A stretch of DNA of 64,000 bases from Clostridium pasteurianum (lineage in GTDB: Bacteria; Bacillota; Clostridia; Clostridiales; Clostridiaceae), in contig NZ_MCGV01000001.1 of the NCBI RefSeq assembly GCF_001705235.1, positions 3,104,181 to 3,168,180 on the forward strand, given 5' to 3'. Both the position numbers and the translations under genes were made by a program. Below the pieces are notes generated by a model. That model did not search any database, was not told the DNA's origin, and saw only the letters and a list, made by a program, of their open reading frames with translations. This document shows positions 15,761 through 55,170 of the stretch, in pieces (position 1 is the first letter of the stretch; the number at the start of each line of letters is the position of its first letter).

Positions 15761-15998
15761 TTTTCGCAGGGAAGCGGAGAAAAACTTACCTTGCTTTTTT
15801 ATTCTAAGTGAAGTAATAGTATTTTGGAAACGATTTAAATAAAATTCAATAAGTCTTATTCCAAATTATAAAAAGACTTAGAAATTTTAATTTGTTTGAG
15901 CAGCTTTTTAGCGAGTTACTAAAATTTCTTAGTCCTTTTATAATTTGGAGCTTAGACTTATGAGCTTTATTTAATGTTTCAAAATACTATTACTTCAC
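15761..15998. repeat. Repeat family A, copy 1 (tail plus giant hairpin)
   Basis: Terminal arms at 15808-15831 and 15976-15998 (GTGAAGTAATAGTATTTTG and its reverse complement) enclose arms of about 85 bases that pair across a roughly 25-base asymmetric loop containing TTGTTTGAG and CGAGTT. A tail of about 47 bases (15761-15807, AAACTTACCTTGC) lies outside the hairpin. Similar sequence recurs at 35692, 54774 and 55020. The right terminus overlaps the end of panD and supplies its last codon and stop. No transposase is present. Confidence 0.8.
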
Positions 15999-16348
15999 AC
16001 TTTGGTTATGACATTATCATCATCTACAAATACAACTTTAGGCTTTAATTCAGAGGCCTCATCAGAGGTTATAGTGCAGTAGCACATAATGATAATTTTG
16101 TCACCTACTTCTGCACATCTTGCAGCGGCACCATTTAAGCATATTATTCCGCTTCTGGGTTCACCTGCTATTACGTAAGTTGCAAATCTCTCACCATTAT
16201 TAATGTTTGCAATTTCAACTTTTTCATATTCAAGTATTCTAGCTGCATCCATGAGAGTTTTATCTATAGTAATGCTTCCCACATAGTTTAAGTCAGCCTG
16301 CGTAACTACTGCTCTGTGTATTTTTGATTTTAACATATTTAAGTACAT
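15995..16348 (-). CDS. panD: Aspartate 1-decarboxylase (slightly shortened C-terminus)
   Basis: The 117-residue precursor has the self-cleavage site YVGSITID, with Gly24-Ser25 becoming the pyruvoyl group, and the [10 protein letters not shown] core. It makes beta-alanine for pantothenate. The protein ends at DNVITKV, about ten residues before the usual end of Bacillus-type PanD (about 127). The GTG-TGA that closes the frame is the terminal inverted repeat of a family A element, so an insertion probably trimmed the tail. The catalytic core is complete and the enzyme should still work. It is the last gene of panB-panC-panD. Confidence 0.92.
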
Positions 16349-16350
16349 TT

Positions 16351-17205
16351 TTATTCCTCCAAATTTTTAAAGATAAAGTTGTCTATAAGTCTTATCTTTC
16401 CTATATAAACGGCAATAGCCACTAAAGCGGATTTTTCAATTTCGGGTATACTTTGGAGAGAAAGGATATTCACTATTTCTACATAATCTATTTTAGCAAG
16501 AGGTTCACTTTTAAGTGTAGATGATATGATTTTTTTTATTTCAGTGCAATTTCTTTCACCGGCTTCGATAGCATTTTTAGCTTTTTTAAGACTTTTATAT
16601 AATATGACTGCTGCAGTCCTTTCTTTTTCTGAAAGATAAGTGTTTCTAGAACTTTTGGCAAGACCGTCCTTTTCACGCACTATAGGACATGCAATTATTT
16701 TAATATCAAAGTTTAAATCCCGTACCATTCTTCTTATTACAGCCACTTGTTGAGCATCCTTTTGACCGAAATAAGCCCTGTCTGGAGAAACTATGTTAAA
16801 TAATTTAGAGACAACGGTGCATACTCCTCTGAAGTGACCTGGACGTCTAGCACCACAAAGTACATCCGTGATTTTTGAAGAATTAACAAAGGTTACAGCA
16901 TCATCAAAGTACATTTCAGAAGCTTTAGGGTTAAATAAAATTGAAGCGTTAGCCTCCATGCAAACTTTTTCGTCCCTTTTTAAATCTCTAGGATAAACTG
17001 CAAGGTCTTCTTTAGGACCAAATTGAATTGGGTTTACAAAATCACTTACAACAACCCTGTCATTTTCCTTTGAAGCTCTTTCAATTAAGCTTTTATGGCC
17101 TTCATGTAAGTATCCCATGGTTGGAACAAGTCCTATGCTTAGACCTTCTTTCTTCCACTGCTTTATATATTTTTTAACTTCATTTATTGAATGCAAAGTT
17201 TCCAT
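16351..17205 (-). CDS. panC: Pantothenate synthetase
   Basis: The 284-residue protein has the nucleotide-binding [16 protein letters not shown] (about residues 22-37), [17 protein letters not shown] and the [12 protein letters not shown] segment, followed by the KSSRNTYLS loop. It joins pantoate and beta-alanine with ATP to give pantothenate. It lies between panB (5 bases upstream) and panD (2 bases downstream) on the minus strand, so all three genes of the pathway are co-transcribed. Length is normal. Confidence 0.96.
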
Positions 17206-17210
17206 TTGAT

Positions 17211-18044
17211 TTACTTCCCTTCTAAACTTTCTATAATTGTAGGATTGATTTTAAAAGAATGATCTTGGTCAGGAAAAAGACCTTCTTTTACTTCATATGA
17301 ATAGCTGTTAAAAGCAATTTTCATAACTTTTTTAACATCTGCATATTTTTTTACAAACTTTGGCGTTATGTCATCATACATTCCCAGCATATCCTGATAA
17401 ACTAAAATTTGACCATCACAGTACTTACCAGCTCCAATGCCTATAGTAGGTATTGTTATATTTTCAGTTATTAATTTTGAAAGTTTCCAAGGGATGCCCT
17501 CCAAGGTTACTGCAAATGCACCAGCCTCCTCTATTTTTTTAGCATCTTCAATTACTGTTTGTGCAGCAAGTTCACTTTTACCTTGAACTTTAAAACCTCC
17601 AAAGGCATTTACTGACTGAGGGGTTAATCCTATGTGGCCCATTACTGGAATCTGTGCCTTTACGATTTCTTTAATTTTGTCTGCTACTATAGCTCCACCT
17701 TCAAGCTTTACGGCGTTTGCGTTAGTTTCTTTAATTAATCTTCCAGCATTGTATACTGCATCATAGGTTGAAGTTTGATAAGACATGAAGGGCATGTCCG
17801 CAACTATTAGAGCATTTTTTGCACCTTTTGTTACAGCTTTTGTATGATGAATCATGTCATCCATTGTTACACTTAAGGTATTTTCATATCCAAGACACAC
17901 CATACCAAGAGAATCGCCTACGAGAATTCCATTTATATTGCAGGAATCAATTATTTTTGCTGTGGAATAATCATAAGCTGTTAGCATTACTAATTTTTCT
18001 TTTTTTACTTTGGAATTTTTGAAAGTTTCGATGGTATTTTTCAT
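17211..18044 (-). CDS. panB: 3-methyl-2-oxobutanoate hydroxymethyltransferase
   Basis: The 277-residue TIM-barrel protein has [14 protein letters not shown], the metal-binding [15 protein letters not shown] (about residues 41-55), TVTMDDM-like VTMDDMIHH and [11 protein letters not shown]. It transfers a hydroxymethyl group from methylene-tetrahydrofolate to ketoisovalerate, making ketopantoate, and thus depends on folate. AGGAGA lies seven bases before the ATG. It is the first gene of the panBCD operon. No panE is in the window. Confidence 0.96.
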
Positions 18045-18414
18045 TACAACTCTCCTTATAACTATTTTCTATAGTCTTCCTCATTAAAAAATGAAGAAAC
18101 GGATGAATTGAGTATCACAAAAAAACACCCTTGTCTTTTTATTAGAAAGGAAATTTTAAATTGAAAAGTATGATAGTAATTATTGTCCCATTCTTGTTGA
18201 TATGGGCAACTTTTCTGTATATATAATAAAAAAAACATAGGTGAAGTTCTAGTTAAATAGATACTCCCCATCACAAGTATTAAAATAACATAAATTTAAA
18301 ATATTTACAAGGAAAAATTGTTTTTTAAAATATATGTGTTTTATTATGCATAATATTAAATATGAATACAATTAAATCCAAAAATATAGTTTTAAGGAAG
18401 GTGACGAATTAAGT
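18045..18414. other. Divergent intergenic region between panB and a radical SAM gene
   Basis: This region separates two divergent genes. It holds a stem TTGTCCCAT/ATGGGCAA (about 18183-18207, one bulged base) that could lie in the panB leader. No T-box, known riboswitch or clear terminator is visible. A 70-codon minus frame (18062-18274) has no ribosome binding site and an odd composition, so I do not call it a gene. AAGGAAGGTGA just before 18415 is the ribosome binding site of the plus-strand gene. Confidence 0.4.
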
Positions 18415-19788
18415 ATGATGAATTTTCTAGAAAAAGGCATTAAGGATTCTCTAGTAAAGGCTGTAGCAAAGATTATAGATAAAAATCCTGAAAAAAATAT
18501 AGATAAAATTTTTGCAATATTAGATAAAACTATTAAGGATCCATATAGTAAGCCTGCTATTGAATCAATTTATAATTATTATAAAACAAATGAAACTATT
18601 CATGAATTTATACAAAATATATTGACCACGACGGATAAAAATTGTCTTAAAAAATTTTTTGCAAATTTTTTTGGAAATGCTATATGGTATGGTATGTCAA
18701 GAAGACAGAAATTTTTAGATAAAGAAGATACAAAGGTACCATTTGTTTTGCTTATAAGTCCATCGATGAGATGTACACTTAGATGTAAGGGATGCTATGC
18801 ATCAAAATACAGTAAAAAGGATGACATAACAAAAGAGGAAATCGAAAGAATTGTAAAAGAGGCTAGAGATCTTGGAATATATTATGTAATAGTTCTAGGG
18901 GGAGAACCATTTATTAATGATTATATGCTGGACATATATGAAAAGTTTAATGATATGATTTTTACTCCTTTTACAAATGGTCAGCTTATAACTGAAGAAA
19001 TTGCAGATAGGCTTAAAAAGTGTGGAAATGTAATACCAATGTTTTCGCTTGAAGGGTTTGCGAAGGAGACAGATGCTAGACGTGGAAAAGGTGTTTTTAA
19101 AAGAGTTATGGAATCTATGGATATGCTAAAAAAACGTGGTATGTTATTTGGAGTGTCTTCAGCTGTTTCGGGGAAAAATTTAAATACGGTAACTTCCGAT
19201 GAGTTTATAGATATGCTCATAGATAAGGGTGCTAAAATGAGCTGGTATTTTATATATATGCCAGTTGGAGCAGGAGCAGATGTGAATTTTATGTTAAAGC
19301 CAGATGAAAGGTTGCTTTTAGGTAGAAGAGTAAGGAAAATACGAACTACGAAACCTTATTTTGCTATAGACTTCTTTAATGATGCGCCTTATGTTGGAGG
19401 ATGCATAGCTGGAAAATATTATTGCCATATTAATTCAAAGGAAGATGTTGAGCCATGCATATTTTCACACTTTTCTACCTTTAACTTAAAGGGAAAACCG
19501 TTAATTGAGGCATTTAGGACTGATTTTTTTAAGGAGCTTAGAAGGCGACAACCATATAACGAAAATATGCTTAGACCTTGCATGATGATAGATAATACAA
19601 ATGTAGTACGTGAAGTGGTTTCTAAGGTTAAGGCGCATCCCACAGAAGCTAGTGGAGAAAAGATGATAACGGATAAAAAGTTTATGGCGGATCTTGATAA
19701 ACTAGCCAGCGATTTTAAGATTAAAGCTGATGAAGAATGGAAGAATGTATTTAATGGGAAAGGGAATGATATGATGTCTAAAGGGTAG
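18415..19788 (+). CDS. Radical SAM protein with a C-terminal cysteine-rich region
   Basis: The 457-residue protein has the radical SAM motif in SMRCTLRCKGCYA (three cysteines near residues 120-127), followed by GGEPF and a standard half barrel. After it come further cysteines in GGCIAGKYYCHIN, EPCIF and LRPCMM that resemble an auxiliary-cluster (SPASM-like) arrangement. About 100 residues precede the radical SAM domain, and the tail is helical. No peptide precursor or partner gene lies nearby, so the substrate is unknown. It is a single gene. ATG 18415 and ATG 18418 are both possible starts. Confidence 0.75.
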   Translation: MMNFLEKGIKDSLVKAVAKIIDKNPEKNIDKIFAILDKTIKDPYSKPAIESIYNYYKTNETIHEFIQNILTTTDKNCLKKFFANFFGNAIWYGMSRRQKFLDKEDTKVPFVLLISPSMRCTLRCKGCYASKYSKKDDITKEEIERIVKEARDLGIYYVIVLGGEPFINDYMLDIYEKFNDMIFTPFTNGQLITEEIADRLKKCGNVIPMFSLEGFAKETDARRGKGVFKRVMESMDMLKKRGMLFGVSSAVSGKNLNTVTSDEFIDMLIDKGAKMSWYFIYMPVGAGADVNFMLKPDERLLLGRRVRKIRTTKPYFAIDFFNDAPYVGGCIAGKYYCHINSKEDVEPCIFSHFSTFNLKGKPLIEAFRTDFFKELRRRQPYNENMLRPCMMIDNTNVVREVVSKVKAHPTEASGEKMITDKKFMADLDKLASDFKIKADEEWKNVFNGKGNDMMSKG

Positions 19789-19872
19789 CTAGTTAATTTT
19801 GAAATATATGTATAAGGTATGCTGTAGACTGTAATGAAATAAAATGTTATTATATTGTTTAGGTAACAATAA

Positions 19873-19975
19873 TAGAGAAACCAAGACGAAACTTAATTTA
19901 TATATGCTCCGCAAAATTGTCTTCTAGAGTGTTATATTACTTGTATAAATTAATTGTTTAGCTGGTTTCCCTAAA
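19873..19975. repeat. Repeat family B, copy 1
   Basis: The outer arms, AGAGAAACCA followed by GAAACTTAATTTA on the left and TAAATTAATTGTTTAGC then TGGTTTCCCT on the right, are inverted copies of each other, enclosing a different middle sequence. The same outer arms occur at 21307-21419. The copy lies about 40 bases upstream of the solute-binding protein gene. Confidence 0.65.
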
Positions 19976-20013
19976 ATGATTTCACATGTTTATAGAAATG
20001 AAGGGAAATGCAT

Positions 20014-21306
20014 ATGAAAAAGTTTTTTATAAGAATGTTAGCTTTAATTATGTGTGTTGGTGTTGTTTTTTATGCTTCCGCATGTGGTACTATAAAGAAC
20101 AAAACGTCAGAGCAGAAAGTTAAGAAAGTTAACAATAAACCTGGAAATATAACTATATGGATAAATAGCAAAAATGAAAACATAATAAAAGATCAGATAA
20201 ATATGTTTAATAAAAAGTATAATTACATAGCAGTAAATGCGGTTTTTATGAGTGAGGAAGATATAATAAAAAATTATGAAAATAATTATAAGAATAATGG
20301 TAAGCTTCCTGATGTTGTGGAAATCAGTGATTTAAATGCAGCTGAATTTGTTAATAAATATAAGCAAAAGCTTGTTAATGTATCATCAGACAGTGATATA
20401 AAAAATGATATGTTTTTATCAAATAAAATACATAATTTAACTCAAAACAGCAAGGTATATGGATATCCGTGGTATACAGAACCAGAATTTATGATTTACA
20501 GGTCAGATATACTAAAGCAGTTAAAGATAGATCCTGATGATATAAAGACATGGAAGGATTATAATGAAGTCGGAAATACAGTTAAGCAAAATGGTAAAAA
20601 CTTAATGTATAGTTCTGATTTAGGAAATATTTATGATGTTTGTAACAGTGAACTAGGAGTAAATTTCTTAGATGACAACGATAAAGTAGATGTTAAGGAT
20701 GAAAAATTTAAGGAATCAGCTAATTTTATCTTTGATATTATAAAGAATAATACTAATATAAGTATTACACCAGGTAAGGATATTCCTAAAGCTTTCAGTA
20801 CAGGAGAGGTTGTATCTATGATCGTATCTCCTGAAGAAATGCTATATCTTCAAAATGATTATCCTGGGCTTAAGGGAAAGATTTGTGTAGAGAATTTACC
20901 AGCTTTTGAAGAGGGCGGAAACAATACAGCTTATAAAGATGGAGCTAATTTAATATTGTCCAGCAATGAAAAAACCAAATCATATGCTGAGCAATTTGCT
21001 AAGTTTGTTACAGGTAATGAAGAAGCTGTATATAATCAATTTTCTATTTATGCGCTTTGTTCTAGTAATTCCTCCGTTTATAATTATGATAAAATACATA
21101 AAAAAAATGATTATGTTGGCGGAAAGGATATATATAAAATGTACATGAATTCAGCTAAGCTATTTTCAGATATAAAATATTATAAAGATTACTCAGATAT
21201 AAGAAATTATGTAATTAAAGAAATAGGAGATGAAGCAGCACAAAACAAAGGCATCGATGAAATAATAAGCAACATGCAAAAAGTCTTAAGTGATAAGTAT
21301 AAGTAA
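20014..21306 (+). CDS. ABC-type extracellular solute-binding lipoprotein
   Basis: The 430-residue protein begins with a basic, hydrophobic signal ending in FYASACG, a slightly unusual lipobox, so it is probably lipid-anchored outside the cell. The rest resembles family 1 sugar-binding proteins: NITIWINSKNEN near the start, PDVVEISDLNA (about residues 101-111), YGYPWYTEPEFMIYRSDIL (about 149-167) and a late helical region. No permease or ATPase gene is adjacent, which makes it an orphan binding protein. ATG 20014 has AAGGG eight bases upstream; ATG 20008 is too close. Repeats bracket the gene. Confidence 0.75.
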   Translation: MKKFFIRMLALIMCVGVVFYASACGTIKNKTSEQKVKKVNNKPGNITIWINSKNENIIKDQINMFNKKYNYIAVNAVFMSEEDIIKNYENNYKNNGKLPDVVEISDLNAAEFVNKYKQKLVNVSSDSDIKNDMFLSNKIHNLTQNSKVYGYPWYTEPEFMIYRSDILKQLKIDPDDIKTWKDYNEVGNTVKQNGKNLMYSSDLGNIYDVCNSELGVNFLDDNDKVDVKDEKFKESANFIFDIIKNNTNISITPGKDIPKAFSTGEVVSMIVSPEEMLYLQNDYPGLKGKICVENLPAFEEGGNNTAYKDGANLILSSNEKTKSYAEQFAKFVTGNEEAVYNQFSIYALCSSNSSVYNYDKIHKKNDYVGGKDIYKMYMNSAKLFSDIKYYKDYSDIRNYVIKEIGDEAAQNKGIDEIISNMQKVLSDKYK

Positions 21307-21419
21307 AGGGAAACCATGTGAAACTTAATTTAGGCGTGTACCAAAATGCCAATCTCCAAGGCATTATGGTACACGCCTAAATTGATAGTTGAACTGGTTT
21401 CCCTAAAAGGGGGTAAAGG
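21307..21419. repeat. Repeat family B, copy 2 (full hairpin)
   Basis: AGGGAAACCA-TGTGAAACTTAATTTAGGCGTGTACCA on the left and TGGTACACGCCTAAATT...AGTTGAACTGGTTTCCCT on the right form one long hairpin around GCCAATCTCCAAGGC. The element starts directly after the TAA of the solute-binding gene and probably acts as its transcript end. It has the same orientation as copy 1. Confidence 0.8.
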
Positions 21420-21442
21420 CATAGCAAAAAATTATAGACATA

Positions 21443-21512
21443 AAAAATGCCAATCTCCAAGGCATTATGGTACACGCCTAAATTATTAGTTGAACTGGTT
21501 TTCCTAAAAGGG
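21443..21512. repeat. Repeat family B, copy 3 (right half only)
   Basis: About 70 bases repeat the right part of copy 2 almost exactly, from AAAATGCCAATCTCCAAGGC to the TGGTTTTCCTAAAAGGG end. The left arm is missing, so this is a partial tandem duplication with the start at about 21443. Confidence 0.8.
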
Positions 21513-21899
21513 AATTCCATAATTTGTTGACGAGCGGAGCAATGTCAAGCACTACTCACTTCAGCTGATGTAAAACAGATTAGATAACCGATTATAAATA
21601 TACCATAATATTTTGATGCTAATATTTTTGAACATGCATAGTTTAAGTTTCGCTTGGCTTTCATTAGCTGAACCCAAACCTTTCAGCATCGTATTTTTGC
21701 GGATAAAAACCCAAACTAAGTTTCAAATTTTTTTAGTTATTGTAACAAGTCTCATTAAGTCAGCAAAATGAATTATAATCATATAAAAATATCCTGTTAA
21801 ACGTTTACTAAAATACTAAAATGTGATACAATAAAAAATGCCGAAAATAAATTATATATTTATTTTATTTGCTCTATTTTACATAGGGAAAATTGAAGT
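21513..21899. other. Intergenic region with no recognised gene
   Basis: This AT-rich region holds only a short hairpin (GCTGAA/TTCAGC, about 21667-21687). I see no open frame with a ribosome binding site and no promoter that leads to a gene. Confidence 0.4.
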
Positions 21900-21955
21900 A
21901 ATAAAAGTGAGGTTAAATAAAAATCATTAAATTTTTATTTAACCTCACTTTTATT
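21900..21955. terminator. 25-base perfect hairpin after a glycosyltransferase gene
   Basis: The arms 21900-21924 and 21931-21955 are exact reverse complements with a 6-base loop (CATTAA). The stem contains GTGAGGTTAAAT. It lies just after the minus-strand gene ending at 21967 and should end its transcript. Confidence 0.8.
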
Positions 21956-21966
21956 TAAGTAATTAT

Positions 21967-23091
21967 TTAAGAAAATTTTTCATAGATTTTTTTGTATGCT
22001 TCTAATGTAAGTTTAGCAGTATTTTTCCAAGAAAACTTTTTGGCTTGAGTAAGTCCTTTTATGCTTAAATTTTCTTTTAAATTACTATCTTCAAGTATAT
22101 TTATAATTGAGTTTTTTAGTTCATTAGTATTAAATGGATCTATAAGGATAGCAGCATCTCCTGCAATTTCTGGCATCGAGGAAATATTTGATGTTATTAC
22201 AGGTACTTTGCAGCTCATTGCCTCAAGTACAGGAAGACCGAAACCTTCGTATAATGAAGGATAAACAAATATTTCACATGCATTATAGAAAACAGGCAGA
22301 AGTTTTTCTGAAATATAGCCTGTAAAAATAACATCATTTGATATCTCAAGTTTATGACATAAATCCTTTAAATTATTAAGTTCATCACGACAGGAACCAA
22401 TTATTACAAGGTTGTGCTTTAAAGTTAATTTTTTATTTGCTTTAGAAAAGGCATGTATAAGTGTTTTGACATTTTTTCTATTACTGAAACCGCCTAGATA
22501 AAGAATAAAAGGTTTTTTAATATCATATTTTTTTGAAATGATTTTTTTACAATTTTCTTTGTTTAGTGGTTTATAGTTATAATTTGCGGCTAGTGGTGCT
22601 ACATATACTTTGTCTGAATTAATTGGAAAGTATTTTAGAATATCTTTTTTAGAATATTCTGATACAGTTATAATTGCATCAGAATTTTCTATTATAAATG
22701 GCATATTTTTTAAAAATTTTAAAAGATAACTTCTACCCACCGTTTCAGGCATAATATATGGAATAAGGTCATGAACAGTAGAGACTTTTATGCAGGGTAT
22801 ATTTTCATTAAGACCTATGCCGTTTTGAGGAACGTGGTATATATCAATGTTATTTTTTAATATATTTTCAGGGAAGTAACAGTTTTCAAAAAAATTGTGA
22901 TAACCCTTTGAAACGATATTTATCTTAGAATTTGTTCTTATGAAATTCTTATAATTACGCCCATACCAATATAGTGTATATGAATTTTTATCATCAATAT
23001 TTAAAAGTTCTTTTACTAAATTTGAAGTATATGTCCCAATTCCAGTTCCTCCGTATAAATTTATTCCTCTGGCATCAATTGCTATGTTCAT
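21967..23091 (-). CDS. GT4-family glycosyltransferase (CotSA-like)
   Basis: This protein of about 374 residues has the two-domain GT-B fold. The N-terminal acceptor domain carries IDARGINLYGGTGIGTYT (near the start) and HVPQNGIGL. The C-terminal donor domain has LYLGGFSNRKN, VIFTGYISEKLLPVFYN and EGFGLPVLEAMSCKVPVITS (near 280-300), the nucleotide-sugar EX7E motif. It is a retaining, nucleotide-sugar-dependent enzyme. Start ATG 23091 has GGGAG at good spacing; an upstream ATG at 23106 has none. Its divergent neighbour is a CotS kinase, the same pairing as CotSA-CotS in Bacillus spore coats. Confidence 0.85.
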   Translation of the reverse strand: MNIAIDARGINLYGGTGIGTYTSNLVKELLNIDDKNSYTLYWYGRNYKNFIRTNSKINIVSKGYHNFFENCYFPENILKNNIDIYHVPQNGIGLNENIPCIKVSTVHDLIPYIMPETVGRSYLLKFLKNMPFIIENSDAIITVSEYSKKDILKYFPINSDKVYVAPLAANYNYKPLNKENCKKIISKKYDIKKPFILYLGGFSNRKNVKTLIHAFSKANKKLTLKHNLVIIGSCRDELNNLKDLCHKLEISNDVIFTGYISEKLLPVFYNACEIFVYPSLYEGFGLPVLEAMSCKVPVITSNISSMPEIAGDAAILIDPFNTNELKNSIINILEDSNLKENLSIKGLTQAKKFSWKNTAKLTLEAYKKIYEKFS

Positions 23092-23254
23092 TTGCACATC
23101 TCCCATTACGCTTTATCCCTATAATATAGTATAGAAATAATAAATAAATGTGTGATAGATTATTGTCAGATTTTTAAAATTATCGTTATATCACATAGTT
23201 TAAGGCATTCTCATATAATAAATGTGTGAGATTAGGTTAAGTGGTGAAAATACT

Positions 23255-24262
23255 GTGAGTGATGTAGAAATTAATAAAATATTAAAAGAAAATTATGATA
23301 TTAACGTAAACGAAGCAAAGAAAATAAAAAACGTTTACAAAATAGAAAGCGGTTCTGAAATTTATTGCCTTAAGTGTACACATTATGATTATGGTCATGT
23401 CTTGTTTATAGTTAATGCTATTGATCATCTTAGAAAAAATGGATTCACTAAGATACCCAAAATTATTCCTACAATTAGTAGAAAAGAAATTATAAAATTT
23501 CAAAATGGATATGCTTATCTTACAAACTGGATTGATTCAAGAGTATGCAATTTTGATAATCCAGTTGATTTAAAAATGGCAGCAGTTGCCCTTGCTAGTC
23601 TTCATAAAAGTAGCAGGAATTTTATTGTTACAAATGATATGAATCCTAGGATTGGATGGTTTAAGTGGCTAGAAACATTCAAGAGAAGAAAAGACGAAAT
23701 ACTAAATTTTCAAAAAATAATTTGTAGCAAAGAGAATAAAACGGAATTTGATAATTTATATATGAAGTTAATGAAGGAAGAAACTTTAAAAGCTGATAAA
23801 TCAATAAATGATATAAAAAAATCACAGTATGTGGATAAAATGCAGAAGGAATACCGTTTAAAAGGATTTTGCCATCATGATTATGCACATCACAATATAC
23901 TAATAGATAAAGAGGGAGAGGCAAATATTATTGATTTTGATTACTGTATTCTAGATACACATCTTCATGACTTATCAAGTCTTCTCATAAGAAGAATGAA
24001 AAATGGTTTTTGGGATATGCGTACGGCATTATTTATATTAAATGCTTATAATTCTATTTATGCCATTGAAAATAGTGATTTGCCTATCATGGCTGCGTTT
24101 ATGGAATTTCCACAGGGTTACTGGCAGGTTGGACTTCAATACTATATAGAAAAGCAGCCATGGACAGAGGAGTTTTTTATGAGTAAATTGTATAAAATTT
24201 ATAAGGATAAGGGTGAAAGACAGGAATTCTTAGATAAATTTATGTTACTCAAGTATTTATAA
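23255..24262 (+). CDS. CotS-family spore coat kinase-like protein
   Basis: The protein of about 335 residues is of the CotS/YsxE family, which has an aminoglycoside-phosphotransferase-like fold. The catalytic loop GFCHHDYAHHNILID (near residue 210) carries the HxD aspartate and asparagine, and IIDFDYC follows with the metal-binding aspartate. CLKCTHYDYGHV holds the ATP-binding lysine region. GGTGA lies seven bases before GTG 23255, which I prefer to ATG 23222 with no ribosome binding site. Such proteins are coat components in Bacillus; kinase activity is predicted but the substrate is unknown. It is first of three plus-strand genes. Confidence 0.82.
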   Translation: MSDVEINKILKENYDINVNEAKKIKNVYKIESGSEIYCLKCTHYDYGHVLFIVNAIDHLRKNGFTKIPKIIPTISRKEIIKFQNGYAYLTNWIDSRVCNFDNPVDLKMAAVALASLHKSSRNFIVTNDMNPRIGWFKWLETFKRRKDEILNFQKIICSKENKTEFDNLYMKLMKEETLKADKSINDIKKSQYVDKMQKEYRLKGFCHHDYAHHNILIDKEGEANIIDFDYCILDTHLHDLSSLLIRRMKNGFWDMRTALFILNAYNSIYAIENSDLPIMAAFMEFPQGYWQVGLQYYIEKQPWTEEFFMSKLYKIYKDKGERQEFLDKFMLLKYL

Positions 24263-24276
24263 ATAGAGGTGATATT

Positions 24277-25032: not shown

Positions 25033-25043
25033 GAGGTAAACAT

Positions 25044-35691: not shown

Positions 35692-35775
35692 TTTTAAATT
35701 GTTTCCAAAATACTATTACTTTTCTTAGAATAAAGGCAAGGTAAGTTTTTCTACGCTTCTCTACGAAAAATACAT
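35692..35775. repeat. Repeat family A, copy 2 (terminus and tail only)
   Basis: GTTTCCAAAATACTATTACTT (35701-35721) is the family A terminus, followed by the tail (CTTAGAATAAAGGCAAGGTAAG and CTACGCTTCT). It aligns in reverse complement with 15761-15831. The long hairpin part is missing, so it is a truncated copy. Confidence 0.75.
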
Positions 35776-35836
35776 TAACCTATTTAAAAATCAAATAATA
35801 TAGATGTCAAAGTAAATCTGTATAGTTTACACCTAA

Positions 35837-35866
35837 AATTCCTTCGTTACGGAGGAATTTTTTTTA
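35837..35866 (+). terminator. Strong orphan terminator upstream of spoIIR
   Basis: AATTCCTTCG (35837-35846) pairs with CGGAGGAATT (35850-35859), with one wobble and a 3-base loop, then a run of T. The nearest plus-strand gene upstream, splB, ends about 570 bases away. It may end splB read-through or an unannotated RNA. Confidence 0.75.
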
Positions 35867-36043
35867 TGTTACGAATTAATGTTAGTTTGCATTATTTATT
35901 ATTGACATAAATAAAATTTGTATGAGTAAAAAAATGGTAATAACGTTGAATATAAAAATTAAAATTGGAAATAAATTTAAATAGATATTAAAGTAAATCA
36001 GCTGTTTACTAATTGAATTTATATAACTGAACGGAGTGATATT

Positions 36044-45902: not shown

Positions 45903-46070
45903 TACATTCACATCTCTAAGTATCTTACATTATCAACTATGATATTATATCATTTAGAAAGGCCTTAGTCAATAAAATTGTATATTGTCTAAATTAAGTA
46001 CTTTAATTACTTCTCTATATTTGATAGAATATAGATACTTGGAAAATTTTCATGAGGGAGATAATATTTT

Positions 46071-46658
46071 ATGTATGGACCAAAAAATCACGGATGGATT
46101 GAAGTAATTGTAGGACCGATGTACAGTGGAAAATCAGAGGAACTTATAAGACGTGTAAGAAGAGTAAAAATTGCAAAACAGAGGATTCAGGTTTTTAAGC
46201 CAGAAATTGATGATAGATATAGTAAAGAAGATGTGGTATCGCATATAGGAGAAAAGGAAGAAGCAGTTCCAATAAAAACCAGTAAGGATATATTAAAATT
46301 TCTTAAGGATGATACACAGGTGATTGCAATTGATGAAGTACAATTTTTGGATGAAGGTATAGTAAAAGTTGTAAATGATCTTGCGGATAAAAATAAAAGA
46401 GTTATCTGTGCAGGACTTGATATGGATTTTAGAGGAGAGCCGTTTGGAGCTATGCCGGATCTTATTGCAATTGCAGAATTTGTAGATAAATTTCAGGCAA
46501 TTTGTATGGTTTGCGGAAATCCAGCCACTAGAACTCAAAGACTTATAAATGGAAGACCGGCAAATTATGATGAACCAACAGTTTTGGTGGGTGCAAAAGA
46601 ATCCTATGAAGCAAGATGCAGGAAATGCCATGTTGTCCCTAAAAAAGAGGTGGAATAA
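46071..46658 (+). CDS. tdk: Thymidine kinase
   Basis: The 195-residue type II thymidine kinase has the Walker A GPMYSGKS (15-22), [11 protein letters not shown] (about 84-94), the lasso-like [15 protein letters not shown] and a zinc site in [13 protein letters not shown] and CRKCH. It phosphorylates thymidine for the salvage pathway. GAGGGAG precedes the ATG. It is the first of a run (DUF1385, prmC, prfA) with very small gaps. Confidence 0.95.
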
Positions 46659-46661
46659 AAA

Positions 46662-47630: not shown

Positions 47631-48484
47631 AAATAAAAGAGGCTCTTTTTAAGGCATATAATCTTTTAAAAGAGAAGAATAATGAGTTCTATAGGGAAGA
47701 TAGCCAGATTCTACTGTGTCATGTTATTAAAAGGGATAAATTATTCATACTTACTAACAGGGACTATGAAATAGACGATAAATTAGTGGATAAATATTTT
47801 GAATGTGTTGATATGAGGAAGAAAAAAATGCCCATTGCATATATAACTCAAAAGTGCGAGTTTATGGGGCTTAATTTTACCATAAAAAGTGGAGTATTAA
47901 TACCAAGGTCTGATACTGAAATTTTAGTTGAGGAAGTTATAAAGCGCATAAAGAATAAAAACTACAAGACAGTATGTGATGTTTGCACTGGAAGTGGTGC
48001 AATAGGACTCTCTATAGCAGAATATGTACATGAAGTTACAGTACTTTGTACGGATATATCACCTAAGGCTGTTGAGGTTGCTTCATTAAATTGTAGTAGT
48101 TTAAAACTTCAGGACAGGGTAAGAATAGAAAAGGGAAACCTTATAAGAAATTCAATAGAAAGAGGAGAAAAATTTGATGTTGTAGTGTCTAATCCACCAT
48201 ATATAAGGGAAAATGAAATCCCTGAATTAATGAAAGATGTTAAGGATTATGAGCCTAAACTGGCACTTTCAGGTGGAGAAGATGGACTTGAATTTTACAG
48301 AAAAATAACGTCAATGAGTAAGAAAATTTTAAATGACAATGGTCTTATTGCGTATGAAATTGGAAGCGATGAGGCAAATGACGTGGAAAGTATATTAAAA
48401 GAAGAAGGTTTTGTTCACGTGGAAACTATAAAGGATCTTGCAAGAATGGATAGAGTAGTTTTAGCCGTAAGAGGTGGATTGTAG
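47627..48484 (+). CDS. prmC: Release factor glutamine methyltransferase
   Basis: The 285-residue protein has the SAM-binding motif VCDVCTGSGAIGLSIA (about residues 115-130) and the catalytic VVSNPPYIRENE (about 184-195), typical of PrmC/HemK. It methylates the glutamine of the GGQ motif in release factors. It overlaps the DUF1385 gene by four bases and lies 81 bases upstream of its substrate gene, prfA. Length is normal. Confidence 0.94.
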   Translation: MKIKEALFKAYNLLKEKNNEFYREDSQILLCHVIKRDKLFILTNRDYEIDDKLVDKYFECVDMRKKKMPIAYITQKCEFMGLNFTIKSGVLIPRSDTEILVEEVIKRIKNKNYKTVCDVCTGSGAIGLSIAEYVHEVTVLCTDISPKAVEVASLNCSSLKLQDRVRIEKGNLIRNSIERGEKFDVVVSNPPYIRENEIPELMKDVKDYEPKLALSGGEDGLEFYRKITSMSKKILNDNGLIAYEIGSDEANDVESILKEEGFVHVETIKDLARMDRVVLAVRGGL

Positions 48485-48565
48485 CGAGGCTGAATTTATT
48501 GATTATAAGAGGCTTAATATGTTATAATTAAAAATTGTGAAAATATAAATACGGAGTGATAAATA

Positions 48566-49645
48566 ATGTTAGAAAGACTTGATTTTTTAGAAAGTAAGTA
48601 TGATGAATTATCAGTAAAAATAAGTGATCCATCTATTATGGCCAACCAACATGAATGGCAAAAGTTATGCAAAGAACATGCAGAAGTTGAAACTATAGTT
48701 TTAAAATATAGAGAATATAAAAAAGCAAGAGAAGATCTTGAAGCAGATAAGGAAATGCTTAGAGATAAATTGGACCCTGAACTTAAAGAAATGGTAGAGG
48801 AAGAGATAAAAGAACTTGAAAAAAATATAGTAAATTATGAAGATGAACTTAAAGTAATGCTTCTTCCTAAAGATCCAAATGACAGCAGAAATGTGTTTGT
48901 AGAAATAAGAGGTGGTACAGGAGGAGAAGAAGCTGCTCTTTTTGCCAGTGACCTATTCAGAATGTACACAAGATATTCAGAGAGACAGGGCTGGCATGTT
49001 GAAGTTATGAGTGCAAATGAAACTGATTTAGGCGGTTTTAAGGAAATTGTATTTATGATAAAGGGAAATGGAGCTTACAGTAGACTTAAGTATGAAAGTG
49101 GAACACATAGAGTTCAGAGGGTTCCAGATACAGAATCTAGTGGAAGAATACACACATCTGCTGCTACAGTTGCTGTACTTCCAGAAGTTGATGATGTTGA
49201 TATTAAAATAAATCCTAATGATATAAGAGTAGATGTGTTTAGGGCTACAGGACATGGTGGTCAGTGTGTAAATACTACTGATTCGGCAGTAAGGATAACA
49301 CATATTCCATCAGGTATAGTTGTTTCATGCCAAGATGAAAAAAGACAGTTAAAAAATAAAGAAAAAGCAATGAAGGTACTTAGAGCAAGACTTTATGAAA
49401 GAGCAGAGGCAGAGAGAAGTGCAAAAATTGCAGAAAATAGAAAGAATCAAATAGGCAGCGGCGATAGAAGTGAAAGAATAAGAACTTATAATTTTCCTCA
49501 AGGAAGAATAACAGATCATAGAATAGGTCTTACAATTTATAAGCTTGACCAATTTCTTGATGGTGATATTGATGAAGTTATAGATGGTCTTATAACTGCT
49601 GACCAAGCAGAAAAGATGAAAGAAATGGGAAATACTAACGATTGA
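48566..49645 (+). CDS. prfA: Peptide chain release factor 1
   Basis: The 359-residue RF1 has the GGQ motif in [18 protein letters not shown] (about residues 226-243), whose glutamine is the PrmC target. The codon-recognition region contains [14 protein letters not shown], in the place of the usual PxT tripeptide, and a coiled-coil N-terminal domain. It terminates translation at UAA and UAG. ACGGAGTGA precedes the ATG. It is linked to prmC. Confidence 0.95.
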
Positions 49646-49663
49646 TTTTAGAGGGTGATTATT

Positions 49664-50242
49664 GTGAATTTAAGTAAAGCCATAAAAAAACAAAATAGCT
49701 ATGACAATTTATTTGTTCTTTTTATGTGCTTTGTTTTTGTTATATTGCCAATAATCCTTATGACATCACATGTTGCCAATATATTTTTTATAATCTATTT
49801 AGTTATGATAGAATTTCTCATATCTTTATCTATAATGGTGAGAATAAGCAATAGTTACTTAAAGCATGAATATGATGGCTTTATGCTTAGGATAACAGAT
49901 GGATTGTTCAAGAAAAATAATAATGTGGTTTGTGAAAAGGTAAATCTTGTTCATACTGAAAGTGATGGAAAAGATTTAAGAATAATTTTAATAACGAGAT
50001 TTAGATTTAGAAATAAATATTTAAAACATGTTGGCAAAAATTTTCTAAAGCGATATCCTATTGCAGCTGAATATTATGTGAAAATGAAAAAAGTATATCC
50101 TGAATCTGATTATTACTATGTAATTATAAGAAATGGAGGATATAAAAAATATATACTTTTGAATACTCTTTTTAAAGTATGCTTGCAGGCTAAATTTAGT
50201 GATGAATGTATAGAGCAGCTTAAAAAGATTAAAGAAACCTGA
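49664..50242 (+). CDS. Membrane-associated protein, function unknown
   Basis: The protein of about 192 residues has two adjacent membrane segments (about residues 18-34 and 42-62), then a basic cytoplasmic domain with TRFRFRNKYLKHVGKNF and a repeated tyrosine-rich region (YPESDYYYVIIRNGGYKKY). GAGGGTGA fits GTG 49664; GTG 49655 lies inside that ribosome binding site. It lies between prfA and sua5 with short gaps. I do not recognise a family. Confidence 0.65.
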   Translation: MNLSKAIKKQNSYDNLFVLFMCFVFVILPIILMTSHVANIFFIIYLVMIEFLISLSIMVRISNSYLKHEYDGFMLRITDGLFKKNNNVVCEKVNLVHTESDGKDLRIILITRFRFRNKYLKHVGKNFLKRYPIAAEYYVKMKKVYPESDYYYVIIRNGGYKKYILLNTLFKVCLQAKFSDECIEQLKKIKET

Positions 50243-50253
50243 GGTGTTTAAGT

Positions 50254-51306
50254 TTGTATACTAAAATAATAAAACTAAATGAGGATAATTTAGATAGCAG
50301 TGTTATCGAAGAAGCAGGAAATGCTATAAGAAATGGCAAGTTGGTTGCTTTTCCAACAGAGACTGTTTACGGACTTGGAGCAAATGCTGAGGATGGTGAG
50401 GCTGTAAGGAAAATATTTGAAGCTAAGGGAAGGCCTCAGGATAATCCACTTATAGCTCACATATCTGAATTTAATGATATAGACAAAATTGCTGAAGAAG
50501 TATCCCGTACTGCAAAGGAGCTTGCAAAAAAATTTTGGCCAGGTCCTATGACCTTAATTATGAAAAAAAAGTCTATAATATCTGATGTTACTAGTGCTGG
50601 TCTTTCAAGTATTGGTATAAGAATGCCATCAGATAAAGTAGCAAGGGCTTTGATAAAAAGTTCTGGTGTGCCGGTAGCGGCACCATCAGCCAATATTTCT
50701 GGTAGACCTAGTCCAACAGATATTGAAAGATGTATAGAGGATTTAAATGGAAAGGTTGATTACATAATCGGAGGAAGCCACTGTAAATTTGGCTTGGAAT
50801 CTACTGTAATAGATTGTACAACTAATCCTGTATGCATTCTTAGACCAGGTGCAATTACCATTGAAATGGTAAGAACAATAGATAAAGATGCTTATATTGA
50901 TCCTGCAGTGAATATGAAGACTAATGATAAAATTCGTCCAAAGGCACCAGGAATGAAGTATAAACATTATGCTCCCAAGGCACCGGTAAAAATAATAAAG
51001 GGAGATTTGAAAAAAACTATTGAAAAAATCAATGAAATGGTGCAAAATTATATAGATGACAATAAAAAGGTTGGAATAATGGCAACTGATGAAACAAAAG
51101 GTAGCTATAAACAGGGTACTGTAATATCCCTTGGAAGTAGAAAGGATATGTACTCTATAGGTAAAAATTTGTTTGAAACCTTAAGAACTTTTGATGACCA
51201 TGAAGTGGATATAATACTATCAGAAGCTTTTGATGAAAAAGGTTTTGGGATTGCCATTATGAATCGATTAAACAAGTCAGCTGGATTTGATATATTGAAT
51301 GTTTAA
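50254..51306 (+). CDS. Threonylcarbamoyl-AMP synthase, Sua5 type
   Basis: The 350-residue protein has the YrdC domain (VAFPTETVYGLGANAEDG, GRPQDNPLIAHI, IGIRMPSDKVARALI, PSANISGRPSP) and then, from about residue 225, the separate Sua5 domain joined by a KAPGMKYKHYAPKAPV linker. It makes threonylcarbamoyl-AMP for the t6A modification of tRNAs reading ANN codons. The start is TTG 50254, seven bases after GAGGTG. The ywlE-like gene follows, a neighbour also seen in other Firmicutes. Confidence 0.93.
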   Translation: MYTKIIKLNEDNLDSSVIEEAGNAIRNGKLVAFPTETVYGLGANAEDGEAVRKIFEAKGRPQDNPLIAHISEFNDIDKIAEEVSRTAKELAKKFWPGPMTLIMKKKSIISDVTSAGLSSIGIRMPSDKVARALIKSSGVPVAAPSANISGRPSPTDIERCIEDLNGKVDYIIGGSHCKFGLESTVIDCTTNPVCILRPGAITIEMVRTIDKDAYIDPAVNMKTNDKIRPKAPGMKYKHYAPKAPVKIIKGDLKKTIEKINEMVQNYIDDNKKVGIMATDETKGSYKQGTVISLGSRKDMYSIGKNLFETLRTFDDHEVDIILSEAFDEKGFGIAIMNRLNKSAGFDILNV

Positions 51307-51393
51307 GATAGGTTATTTTTAAGGAAATGTATTCAAGTTGTAGGCAGCTTGAGGCTTATTATAATTTAAATTTGCGATTTTAAGGAGGATTTT

Positions 51394-51846
51394 ATGAAAA
51401 TACTTTTTGTATGTACTGGCAATACTTGTAGAAGCTGTATGGCAGAAGCTATTTTTAATAGTATGTGCAATATACAAGGTATAGAAGCTTTTTCAGCGGG
51501 TACTTCTGTTATTCCTGGAAGTAAAACATCCTTAAATTCAGCATTAGTTGTTAAAGAAAGACTTAATAAAGATATATCAAATAGACAGGCTGTGCAATTG
51601 ACTCCTTTTTTAGTTGATGATTGCGATTTAGTTTTAACAATGACATCATTATTAAGTGATATGCTTAGAGACTATATGGAGAAAAATGCCAATAAAATTT
51701 ATTCTTTAAGTGAATATACAGAAGTAAGAGGGGATATAACTGATCCCTATGGTAGAGATATTGAAGTTTATAGGCAGACTTATGAAGACATTGAAAAAAG
51801 ACTAAAAGTGTTTATTAAAAAATTAAATGAAGATAGAAGTATTTAA
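51394..51846 (+). CDS. ywlE: Low-molecular-weight phosphatase, probably protein-arginine phosphatase
   Basis: The 150-residue protein has the phosphatase loop CTGNTCRS (residues 7-14) and the DPYG general-acid loop. Residue 11 is threonine, the residue that gives YwlE its preference for phosphoarginine over phosphotyrosine; tyrosine phosphatases of this fold usually have isoleucine or similar there. An extra cysteine follows the loop (SCMAEA where MAE is usual). No McsB arginine kinase is in the window. AGGAGG precedes the ATG. Confidence 0.82.
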   Translation: MKILFVCTGNTCRSCMAEAIFNSMCNIQGIEAFSAGTSVIPGSKTSLNSALVVKERLNKDISNRQAVQLTPFLVDDCDLVLTMTSLLSDMLRDYMEKNANKIYSLSEYTEVRGDITDPYGRDIEVYRQTYEDIEKRLKVFIKKLNEDRSI

Positions 51847-51898
51847 TGACATACTCTTATCTTCTTTTTTTGCAATTATGTATTAGTGGAGGTGCTTT

Positions 51899-52357
51899 AT
51901 GAAAATAGCAATAGGTAGTGATCATGCAGGATTTTCTTTAAAGAAAGAAGTTATGAGACATCTAGAAGAAAAAAATATTGAATTCAAGGATTTTGGTACT
52001 TATACTGAGGATTCATGTGATTATCCAGATTATGCATTAAAGGTTGCAGAAGAGGTTGCTCAAAAGAATTTTGATTTTGGAATACTTGTTTGTGGAACAG
52101 GTATAGGAATAAGCATATCGGCAAATAAAGTTCCAGGAATAAGAGCTGCTGTATGTACTGATACATTTTGTGCCCATGCATGTAGGGAGCATAATAATGC
52201 AAACATACTTGCAATGGGAGGAAGAGTTGTAGGTCCAGGATTAGCTATGGATATAGTTGATACTTTTTTAAGTGCAAAGTTTCAAGGTGATAGACACCAA
52301 AGAAGAATAAATAAAATTATAGATATAGAAAAAAAGTATAGTGGGAGGAATAAATAA
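51899..52357 (+). CDS. rpiB: Ribose-5-phosphate isomerase B
   Basis: The 152-residue protein has [13 protein letters not shown] (near the start), [20 protein letters not shown] (about residues 66-79, with the active-site cysteine) and [17 protein letters not shown]. It interconverts ribose-5-phosphate and ribulose-5-phosphate. GGAGGTG precedes the ATG. Its stop codon shares one base with the upp start (TAATG), so the two are translationally coupled. Confidence 0.95.
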
Positions 52358-52986
52358 TGAGTAAAGTAACACAAATATCACATCCGCTTATATTACATAA
52401 GTTGTCATTTATAAGAGATAAACATACAGGATCTAAAGATTTTAGAGAGATGGTAGAGGAAATATCAATGCTTATGGCATATGAAGTAACAAGAGATATG
52501 CAGCTTGAAACTGTTGAAATTGAGACTCCAGTATGCAAGACTAAATGTAAAATGCTTGCAGGAAAGAAAGTTGCAATAGTACCTATTTTAAGAGCTGGTC
52601 TTGGAATGGTAGATGGAGTATTAAGATTAATACCAGCAGCTAAAGTTGGGCATATAGGTTTATATAGGGATGAAAAGACATTAAAGCCTGTAGAATATTT
52701 CTGTAAACTTCCTCAGGATATAGAAGAAAGAGATATAATAATTACTGATCCAATGCTTGCAACTGGTGGTTCAGCAATAGATGCAATAACACTTCTTAAG
52801 AAAAGAGGAGCAAAATACATAAGATTAATGTGTCTTATCGGCGCACCTGAAGGAATAGCAGCAATACAGGAAGCACATCCTGATGTTGATATTTATCTTG
52901 CAGCCATAGATGAAAAATTAAATGAAAATGGATATATAGTTCCAGGTCTTGGAGATGCTGGAGATAGACTATTTGGTACAAAATAG
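52357..52986 (+). CDS. upp: Uracil phosphoribosyltransferase
   Basis: The 209-residue enzyme has [15 protein letters not shown] (about residues 75-89), [15 protein letters not shown] and the PRPP-binding loop [13 protein letters not shown] (about 128-140), ending [10 protein letters not shown]. It salvages uracil to UMP. It overlaps rpiB by one base. GGGAGG lies in the end of rpiB. The operon ends in a large inverted repeat with an internal terminator. Confidence 0.96.
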
Positions 52987-52987
52987 A

Positions 52988-53176
52988 AAAAATTAAGAAT
53001 TAAAAGTTAAAAATTAAGAGTAAAGGACGATTTTTCGCCGATTTGCTCTAGAAAATCTATAATATATAAAAGAACATTTCCACCAGTGGGAATGTTCTTT
53101 TATATTACAAGTTTTTTGTAGTGGAACGGAAAAAAAGTTACTATCATTCTTAATTTTTTAATTCTTAATTCTTAAT
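52988..53176. repeat. Inverted repeat of AATTAAGAATTAA type around a terminator
   Basis: The left arm (about 52988-53019, AAATTAAGAATTAAAAGTTAA...) and right arm (about 53145-53176, ...TTAATTCTTAATTCTTAATTTT) are inverted. The middle contains a perfect hairpin, AAAAGAACATTTCCAC/GTGGGAATGTTCTTTT (53068-53101), a bidirectional terminator for upp and the minus-strand importer. Short AATTAAGAATTAA repeats of this type are common in AT-rich Firmicutes. Confidence 0.75.
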
Positions 53177-53195
53177 TTTAATGTATTGTTTATAA

Positions 53196-54002
53196 TTAAT
53201 TATATTGATAAATTTTTTGTGCTGCAATAGCAATTATTAATGTGAAAACTGATGTAAGTGCAACTGTTCCACCTGGAGCACAATTTAAGTAATAGGAGCT
53301 AAATAAACCAACTAGTATATCTATAAAACTAAATATTATAGATAATATCAATGTCTTTTTAAAGCCTTTCTTAAACTGCATAGCAGCTGCTACAGGGACA
53401 GCTAGAAGTGATGATACAACGAGTATTCCTATTATTCTTATGGAAATTGATATAGCAAAGCCTACAAGAAGAGAAAATAGATAATTTAAAAACTTTGTGT
53501 TTATTCCAGAAACCCGTGCACCTATTTCATCAAAGGTTGTATATAAAAACTTGTTGTAAAATAGAGTTATAATAACTAAAGAAGCAACACTTATAATAAA
53601 AATAGATATTAAATCACTTTTTTCGACAGTTAAAATGCTTCCAAATAAAAAAGATTCTATGTTCCCACTAGCACGTCCACTGGTTGTTAAAGTTATAGCA
53701 ATTCCAACTGAAAATGTTAATACAATTGGAAGTATTAAATCAGAATATTGTTTAAAGGAATCTCTAAGAAATTCTATTAAAACAGCACAGATAGAAACAA
53801 ATATAAATGTTGTTATCATAGGATTTACACCTATAAATATCCCTATGGCTACTCCAGCAAATGAAGCATGAGAGAGAGTATCTCCAACCATTGAGTAGCG
53901 CTTAAGTACTAAAAAAATACCTATTAGTGGGCATAAAATTGCGATCATTATTGAAGCAAGTAAAGCGTTTTGCATAAAGCTTAAATGAAGGAGTTCAATC
54001 AT
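53196..54002 (-). CDS. Metal ABC importer permease, ZnuB/MntB type
   Basis: The 268-residue protein has eight or so membrane segments and the family features LKRYSMVGDTLSHASFAGVAIG (residues about 33-54) and EIGARVSGINTKFLNY. It belongs to the ABC-3 family of zinc and manganese permeases. It overlaps the ATPase gene by eight bases. No substrate-binding protein gene lies in the operon, so ZnuA must be elsewhere or absent. The metal is inferred from the operator; zinc is a good guess, manganese possible. Confidence 0.87.
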   Translation of the reverse strand: MIELLHLSFMQNALLASIMIAILCPLIGIFLVLKRYSMVGDTLSHASFAGVAIGIFIGVNPMITTFIFVSICAVLIEFLRDSFKQYSDLILPIVLTFSVGIAITLTTSGRASGNIESFLFGSILTVEKSDLISIFIISVASLVIITLFYNKFLYTTFDEIGARVSGINTKFLNYLFSLLVGFAISISIRIIGILVVSSLLAVPVAAAMQFKKGFKKTLILSIIFSFIDILVGLFSSYYLNCAPGGTVALTSVFTLIIAIAAQKIYQYN

Positions 54003-54663
54003 TATTTAAGACCTCCTTATTAATTTTTAAGAAATCTTTTATATTAAATAAAGTTCCATTATTTTTGTTTAATTTAAAGATATGAGTCGAATTTTTATAA
54101 GCTGCATTTAAATTATGTTCAACGCATACTATTGTCATGCCATTTTTTGAATTTAATTCTTTTAGAAAGCTGTAAATTTCTTTTTGACTCTTTACATCTA
54201 CACCAGTTGAAGGCTCATCTAAAATTAGAAGCTCAGGATTACCTATTAAAGAACGTGCAAGGAATATTTTTTGCTTTTGACCTCCAGATAGTGAACCGAG
54301 AAGACTATTCTTGTAATTTTCCATACCGATATTTTTAAGAGATTTATCAATTAAGGAATCAGGATTTTTCAATTTTAAAGATTTTGCGTGACACATGAGC
54401 ATTTCATAGATAGTTATAGGAAATGCAAAATTGAAATTTTCTGTACCTTGAGGCACATAACCTATTCTATTACTATTAATTTTAATGGTACCTTTAAGTG
54501 GTGTTAATATATTTAAAATAAGTTTTAATAAAGTACTTTTACCCGCACCATTTTCACCTATTATGGATGTGTAAGAACCATTTTCTATGTTCAAATTTAA
54601 ATTATCTAGTATGTAATCTGAATTTCTATTGTAAGAAAAACACAAATTTTCGATGGATATCAT
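53995..54663 (-). CDS. Metal ABC importer ATPase, ZnuC/MntA type
   Basis: The 222-residue ATPase has Walker A IGENGAGKSTLLK (about residues 35-47), the signature LSGGQKQKIFLARSL (about 124-138), Walker B LLILDEPSTGVD (about 144-156) and the switch histidine in CVEHNL. It powers the permease encoded just downstream. It is preceded by a Fur-family-like operator over the -35 box. AGGAGTGA lies before the ATG on this strand. Confidence 0.9.
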   Translation of the reverse strand: MISIENLCFSYNRNSDYILDNLNLNIENGSYTSIIGENGAGKSTLLKLILNILTPLKGTIKINSNRIGYVPQGTENFNFAFPITIYEMLMCHAKSLKLKNPDSLIDKSLKNIGMENYKNSLLGSLSGGQKQKIFLARSLIGNPELLILDEPSTGVDVKSQKEIYSFLKELNSKNGMTIVCVEHNLNAAYKNSTHIFKLNKNNGTLFNIKDFLKINKEVLNND

Positions 54664-54738
54664 TAAAAAATCACTCCTATGATTTACATTGTTGAAATGG
54701 CATAAAAAATTATTGAGTTTGTTTATTTACATTATTAT

Positions 54739-54767
54739 ATTATAATCACAATGCAAATCATTTGCAA
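54739..54767 (-). promoter_or_regulatory. Promoter with Fur-family-like operator upstream of the metal importer
   Basis: On the minus strand TTGCAA (54762-54767) and TATAAT (54739-54744) are 17 bases apart. The palindrome TGCAAAT-C-ATTTGCA (54752-54766), a 7-1-7 form as used by Fur, Zur and PerR, covers the -35 and spacer. A Fur-family repressor would block the promoter when its metal is plentiful. Confidence 0.72.
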
Positions 54768-54773
54768 GTAGCT

Positions 54774-55015
54774 GCGAAGTAACAGTATTTTAGAACATTA
54801 AATAAAACTCATAAGACTAAGCTCCAAATAATGAAAATCCTAAGAAATTTTAATAACTCGATGTTCATCTCAAACAGATTAAAATTTCTAAGTCTTTTCA
54901 TTATTTGGAGCTTAGTCTTATTGAGTTTTATTTAAACAGTTCTTAAAATACTGTTACTTCGCTTTAGAGTAAATGCAAGGAGGATTTTCTTCTGCTAGTG
55001 CTGCGGAAAATCTGA
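54774..55015. repeat. Repeat family A, copy 3 (full hairpin plus tail)
   Basis: GCGAAGTAACAGTATTTTA and its reverse complement mark the ends of a 190-base hairpin (54774-54963). The loop holds CTGTTTGAG and CGAGTT in reverse orientation relative to copy 1. The tail (54964-55015, GCAAGGAGGATTTTCTTCTGC) lies to its right, as expected for that orientation. It starts seven bases from the metal-importer promoter. Confidence 0.8.
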
Positions 55016-55019
55016 ATTA

Positions 55020-55170
55020 AAAGACTATATAATGCTAAGCTTCAAACAATGGGGAACCTAAGAAATTTTGATGATTAGCCTATTGAATTAAAATTTCTAA
55101 GTCTTTTTATAATTTGGAGCAAGACTTATTGAGTTTTATTTAAATCGTTCTCAAACTTCTATTATTAATT
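55020..55170. repeat. Repeat family A, copy 4 (central hairpin only)
   Basis: AAGACTATATAATGCTAAGC to about 55140 repeats the inner arms of the family A hairpin, with CCTAAGAAATTTTG and AAAATTTCTAAGTC. The outer terminus is degenerate (CTCAAACTTCTATTATT) on the right and absent on the left. It lies back to back with copy 3. Confidence 0.7.

Follow-up and report, generated by a model that had tools for sequence, protein, structure and literature searches.

A 64,000-nt stretch of the Clostridium pasteurianum genome (the window; the genome is called G000 here) contains four sites of a dispersed repeat that combines a giant hairpin with an oriented tail. The repeat probably represents a family of non-autonomous, gene-free mobile DNA elements similar to miniature inverted-repeat transposable elements (MITEs). 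Hundreds of copies, a shared terminal inverted repeat, the lack of any open reading frame (ORF) in complete copies and empty sites in relatives support this origin, which the initial annotation of the window had offered next to a family of structured RNAs; membership among MITEs is unproven, because a target-site duplication and a partner enzyme are missing. The element would settle near the 3′ ends of genes, and the DNA that separates the hairpin from the gene would be lost; this DNA often includes the native terminator and in some cases the final codons. The hairpin would thereby be joined to the gene, whose reading frame would close at one of the element's own stop codons. Termination of transcription would probably pass from the lost terminator to the tail hairpins, the arms may stay complementary through DNA copying between them, and an enzyme acting in trans would transpose the element.

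Results

A hidden Markov model (HMM) built from copies in the genome matched all four window sites, which are real and homologous, as had been proposed. Two of them also agreed with their initial description as units of hairpin plus tail. Copy 1 (15759-15998, minus strand, HMM match) comprises a giant hairpin at 15809..15998 on the minus (sense) strand, delimited by HMM, DNA fold and sequence and starting at the stop codon of a gene which we take to be panD from the neighbouring panC/panB-like genes and the Rfam pan motif. Its oriented tail (15752..15808, minus strand) consists of a spacer, AAGG and a short second hairpin, as seen by folding and by alignment with 30 copies. The region 15670..15751 (minus strand), extending to the stop codon of a convergent esterase-like gene, is probably the remnant of a facing second unit whose hairpin is missing; by-eye comparison with complete copies makes this the weakest assignment. 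Copy 3 (54774..55014, plus strand) is a complete hairpin with tail by HMM match and RNA fold. Copy 1 folded as DNA at -51 kcal/mol (z -12.2 against shuffles) and copy 3 as RNA at -106.9 kcal/mol (z -15.9 against shuffles). The other two sites are incomplete. Copy 2 (35692..35896, plus strand; HMM match 35692-35771) is a fragment without loop that reaches further than first drawn and is made up of the right-arm end, its tail, a spacer and a facing tail that includes a terminator-like hairpin (35835-35861), together with a degenerate terminal repeat (35882-35896). Copy 4 (55019..55163, plus strand; HMM model positions 27-181), in the same direction as copy 3, is a decayed hairpin without left end or tail. 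Of the terminal sequence thought to be common to all sites, exact GTGAAGTAATAGTATTTTG was found in copy 1 only, and copy 3 has GCGAAGTAACAGTATTTTA. The orientation of loop to tail, which had suggested a unit with direction, was constant in an alignment of the 30 best genome copies.

The unit of about 240 nt, initially taken for the whole element, is usually half of a larger one, judging from the complete copies examined. Six complete copies measured in G002, another species of the genus, had lengths of 531, 532, 532, 571, 572 and 655 nt and contained two units tail to tail between terminal inverted repeats AAATATTGCGAAGTAA or a close variant, and no ORF of 80 aa. Each half runs inward from its terminal repeat through a giant hairpin to a tail hairpin, and a spacer lies between the two halves. 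Many copies have lost part of this architecture. No ORF of at least 80 aa was enclosed by 17 of the 19 terminal-repeat pairs in the sample. With up to one mismatch the terminal repeat occurred 55 times in G000, compared with a single match of the reversed control, and adjacent matches less than 400 nt apart lay tail to tail in 25 cases, head to head in one and in the same direction in 22. Among the copies listed for G198, a genome of another genus, the element measured about 600 nt and showed two facing hairpins between sharp ends, GAATAATATTGCGCAC and TAACTAAATTGTTCGTTA by eye. Other palindrome-rich interiors could also be observed between terminal repeats of the same type, with 242 nt in G001, a third species of the genus (L183:228-469; L194:14111-14352), and with 319-344 nt in G002 (L222:2242-2576; L230:1543-1886; L238:14665-14983), which suggests that one terminus is common to several families of elements. 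At L233 and L234 (the 571- and 572-nt copies) and at L064:2993-3175, the giant hairpin was interrupted by the insertion of a further repeat, whose ends resemble ACGAGGTTTGGG and AAGAAGGATAATGGG.

In 864 kb of G000, comprising the window and 40 evenly placed stretches, the HMM gave 77 matches, 38 of them full hairpins, which extrapolates to roughly 400 copies in the 4.68-Mb genome. The matches covered 13,374 of the 864,000 sampled bases (1.55%). A search with a 238-base query returned at least 93 matches in the same genome, 40 of 358 first-look candidates having been scored. The HMM matched 12 times in 400 kb of G001 and 46 times in 305 kb of G002, the latter sample being picked around copies and giving no density; the element was thus present in three of the four species of the genus examined, G003 being free of it. 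The exact loop motif occurred 164 times in G000 and its reversed pattern not at all. The motif AATAACTCGC..GCTCARACA was found 161 times in G000, 98 times in G001, 43 times in G002 and never in G003, and elsewhere in the family, which we take to be the Clostridiaceae, it gave four matches, in 3 of 190 other genomes. The initial annotation would have been contradicted by fewer than five copies and none in relatives, or by a match to a catalogued element; neither was found. A tandem array of four element units about 260 nt apart was seen at L053:6572-7591.

The shorter motif AACTCGC..GCTCARACA was far more widespread. Within the family it occurred in 67 of 206 genomes, representing 16 of 46 genera; for the order the figures were 76 of 225 genomes, from 23 of 56 genera, and a phylum-wide draw gave 38 of 398 genomes. 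Its reversed control gave no match in most genomes, one match in four phylum genomes and 1-7 in genomes of genus g34, where the motif counts are therefore inflated. The loci from other genera were mostly giant hairpins on different stems. The stem was strong in 30 of 36 such loci, and in 26 of these 30 the upstream (5′) frame pointed into the hairpin; beyond the family, 11 of 15 measured motif sites had a strong stem, the G000 sites of L402 being counted among the 15. In genus g18, six loci whose loop was accompanied by weak stems were set aside. In four loci of this genus (L267, L275, L282 and L284), repeats of about 330 nt with the same loop motif and weak stems recurred with the start GAAGTAATAGACAAGCTTAT. 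The HMM found no match at 1e-3 in 80 PanC-selected loci, this genome and near ones excluded (best E 0.19), and plasmid and phage records gave no match to the element. Loop motifs in viral contigs are mostly chance occurrences, since only one of 83 measured sites had a strong stem. In one viral contig (L481:1256-10619), four occurrences of the motif followed one another about every 3,114 nt, resembling a tandem or concatemer.

All three window loci were empty in G003. Both neighbouring genes were adjacent in another sampled genome for 8 of 86 clusters, the window loci included, and none of the eight counterparts carried the element. The counterpart of L058 in G001 contained a different palindromic element.

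Copies were concentrated behind genes. Measured from the hairpin start, 49 of 79 full hairpins had a co-oriented stop codon between -10 and +28 nt, compared with 1393 of 18962 random points (7.3%); the copies are related to each other, so a P-value for this difference would be no true probability. The upstream gene was co-oriented in 60 of the 79 full hairpins, and none of 80 copies was located inside an ORF. Stops clustered at -8, +8 and +27, fitting the three frames in which genes can enter the terminus, and the element supplies stop codons in all three. In G198, a co-oriented frame ended 82-121 nt before the loop in 14 of 15 copies, 12 of them at 112-121 nt, which is the edge of the element. 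In the window, panD (15995..16348, minus strand, 117 codons) ends on the element. Its product is 10 residues shorter than the G003 orthologue, and the panD gene of G003 is followed by an ordinary terminator hairpin. A second gene, in L219, was about 15 residues shorter than its counterpart; other genes had the same length or differed by a few residues. A terminator-like hairpin behind the stop codon of the counterpart and none in the carrier could be read by eye at few loci (panD, L219 and genes in L230, L184 and L231), which suggests loss of the native terminator there. For one complete element, a terminator scan gave three terminator-like sites, located in its tail region (0.2 expected), and for window copy 2 it gave one (0.1 expected). 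At orthologous gene ends of G001 (L201:11053-11318 and, behind panD, L244) a different palindromic repeat with CAAAGTACAGAGTACAG-like tandem ends was found, which at panD appears to lie within an older palindrome.

Covariation was counted only within the genus, because the stems of other genera differ and were probably misaligned by MAFFT; in a cross-genus alignment of 22 rows, RNAalifold detected no common fold. In an alignment of 19 rows chosen by us from three species of the genus, 20 of 40 pairs showed double changes, with 113 cells compared with 38.9 in shuffles, a value reached by none of 500 shuffles. The 760 pair cells comprised 726 Watson-Crick pairs, 8 G.U, 10 A.C and 16 others. An A.A mismatch between the CTAAG motifs of both arms was kept in all 19 rows. 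In 91 copies, G.U was counted 99 times and A.C 171 times, a comparison biased by consensus mismatches; four copies without a recognised loop were dropped. A search of the whole window against Rfam at gathering cut-offs left the element unmatched and returned only TPP twice and pan once. These hits, two TPP riboswitches and one pan motif, lie at 5622-5729 (minus strand), 8835-8940 (plus strand) and 18179-18270 (minus strand). With E values up to 1, eight element loci gave only weak matches to models of plant and animal miRNA hairpins, none of them plausible.

Discussion

The covariation pattern suits DNA better than a selected RNA, because double changes were almost exclusively of the Watson-Crick type and G.U was no commoner than A.C. 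We infer that the arms are corrected against each other as DNA, while tip and bulges are under selection. A structured RNA, the second option of the initial annotation, is accordingly not favoured. Such an RNA would be a hairpin of the 3′ untranslated region, serving as stabiliser, terminator or protein-binding site, selected at the RNA level and spread by occasional copying. The position of the hairpin behind stop codons on the sense strand, the co-oriented upstream frame at 26 of the 30 strong-stem loci of other genera, the covariation far above shuffles, the conserved tip, the invariant A.A mismatch and the strong RNA fold all agree with it, but it does not account for the missing wobble preference, for lineage-specific sites with empty counterparts or for terminal repeats common to different interiors, and with no Rfam match either we regard it as unlikely. 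The mobile element may nevertheless have a role as RNA at the 3′ ends of mRNAs.

Several observations weigh against the interpretation as a MITE-like element. The initial annotation had recommended a search for target-site duplications and for a transposase with the same terminal repeat. No target-site duplication was seen by eye, at sites whose flanks are often lost and whose sequences have diverged. No transposase was found between paired terminal repeats in the sampled DNA or at the 30 of 55 terminal-repeat places of G000 that were read, and none of 29 loci selected for a Y1, DDE_Tnp_1 or rve domain had that domain inside a repeat pair; at L348 a terminal-repeat pair of about 245 nt lies beside a transposase domain. 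One further site was common to G002 and G001, as a decayed copy, and with one genome per species recent insertions could not be watched. The filter used for full hairpins is biased towards copies whose left arm is intact. Stop codons lay at no fixed distance in G175 (127-326 nt before the loop, 19 copies) and G204 (114-254 nt, five copies). At 30 places with a strict terminal repeat, a co-oriented stop was found at no more than 16 nt in 10, at other distances up to 145 nt in nine, and nowhere within -150..+40 in 11. Of the three loci in the window, two are divergent regions, and the scan of window copy 1 yielded no terminator-like site. Precise targeting of stop codons is weakened by the strict-terminal-repeat places, G175 and G204. 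Because stop distances vary there, we consider it more likely that the element inserts close to gene ends and that the intervening DNA is lost afterwards.

Spread without transposition was also considered. Recombination or template switching might carry intergenic regions with palindromic terminators from one locus to another, with gene conversion spreading a terminator family. Whole stop-to-stop regions were replaced at convergent gene pairs, and the aligned genome copies showed variable left junctions and a mosaic of recurring modules beside the tails. Transposases of the three families searched were few in G000 (three Y1, no DDE_Tnp_1, one rve). However, both ends of complete copies are formed by the same terminal repeat, and the copies of G198, in another genus, are sharp-ended as well, which makes such exchange an improbable source of the family. 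As to the domains themselves, DDE_Tnp_1 was found in neither G000 nor G002, and rve (one in G000, two in G002, 12 in G001, none in G003) fits the distribution of the element, on the basis of four genomes only.

Movement in the form of a folded single DNA strand, comparable to that of REP/IS200-IS605 hairpins or integron attC sites, would agree with a tip and bulges conserved while stems differ and with the location of attC sites at stop codons, but it is very improbable, given that Y1 domains do not track the element (three in G000, two in G002, none in the element-carrying G001, four in the element-free G003), which speaks against Y1 (RAYT) as the mover, and that Y1 elements are not expected to have terminal inverted repeats. 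Integron attC sites are likewise imperfect hairpins at the end of an ORF and recognised by shape; the copies described here are dispersed and do not form cassette arrays.

Searches of one open-licence library, which lacks most subscription papers, found neither a description of the element nor its loop strings. Correia/NEMIS and ERIC are comparable small intergenic repeats. RUP and BOX of Streptococcus pneumoniae (PMC3049150) are small intergenic repeats too, and bacterial MITEs of this kind share with the present element that they are short, gene-free, high-copy, intergenic and partly palindromic. Unlike them, it consists of a facing pair of giant hairpins, becomes fused to gene ends, provides stops in three frames and keeps its tip in genera whose stems differ; no partner transposase was found. 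REP/REPIN sequences with Y1 (RAYT) (PMC3733652) are likewise dispersed palindromes with a conserved part; the present hairpin is far larger, is bordered by terminal inverted repeats and is not tracked by Y1. AT-rich, terminator-like stem-loops near stop codons are described for low-GC Firmicutes in PMC1590033, and the repeated stem-loop families Clop-1 (93 nt) and Clot-1 (74 nt) for C. perfringens and C. tetani in PMC2267715. The present element resembles these in being an AT-rich stem-loop close behind stop codons and, like Clop-1 and Clot-1, repeated; both families are much shorter, though they may belong to the same superfamily.

A broader reading, which we put forward tentatively and consider less probable than not, is that of a class-wide mobile element recognised as a folded single DNA strand. 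A protein would read the tip (AACTC, mini-stem, TCARACA) and the fixed bulges instead of the stem, lineages would swap the whole stem and keep the tip, and each burst would colonise the 3′ ends of genes and replace their terminators. If this were true, the element would be a spreading, replaceable 3′-end module of clostridial genes. The strong covariation without an excess of G.U also calls for caution in taking covariation by itself as proof of a functional RNA. Since many genera have the same conserved hairpin tip on stems that differ, recognition of DNA by shape can be tested directly. The element rewrites many gene ends, in their stop codon, their last residues and probably the end of transcription.

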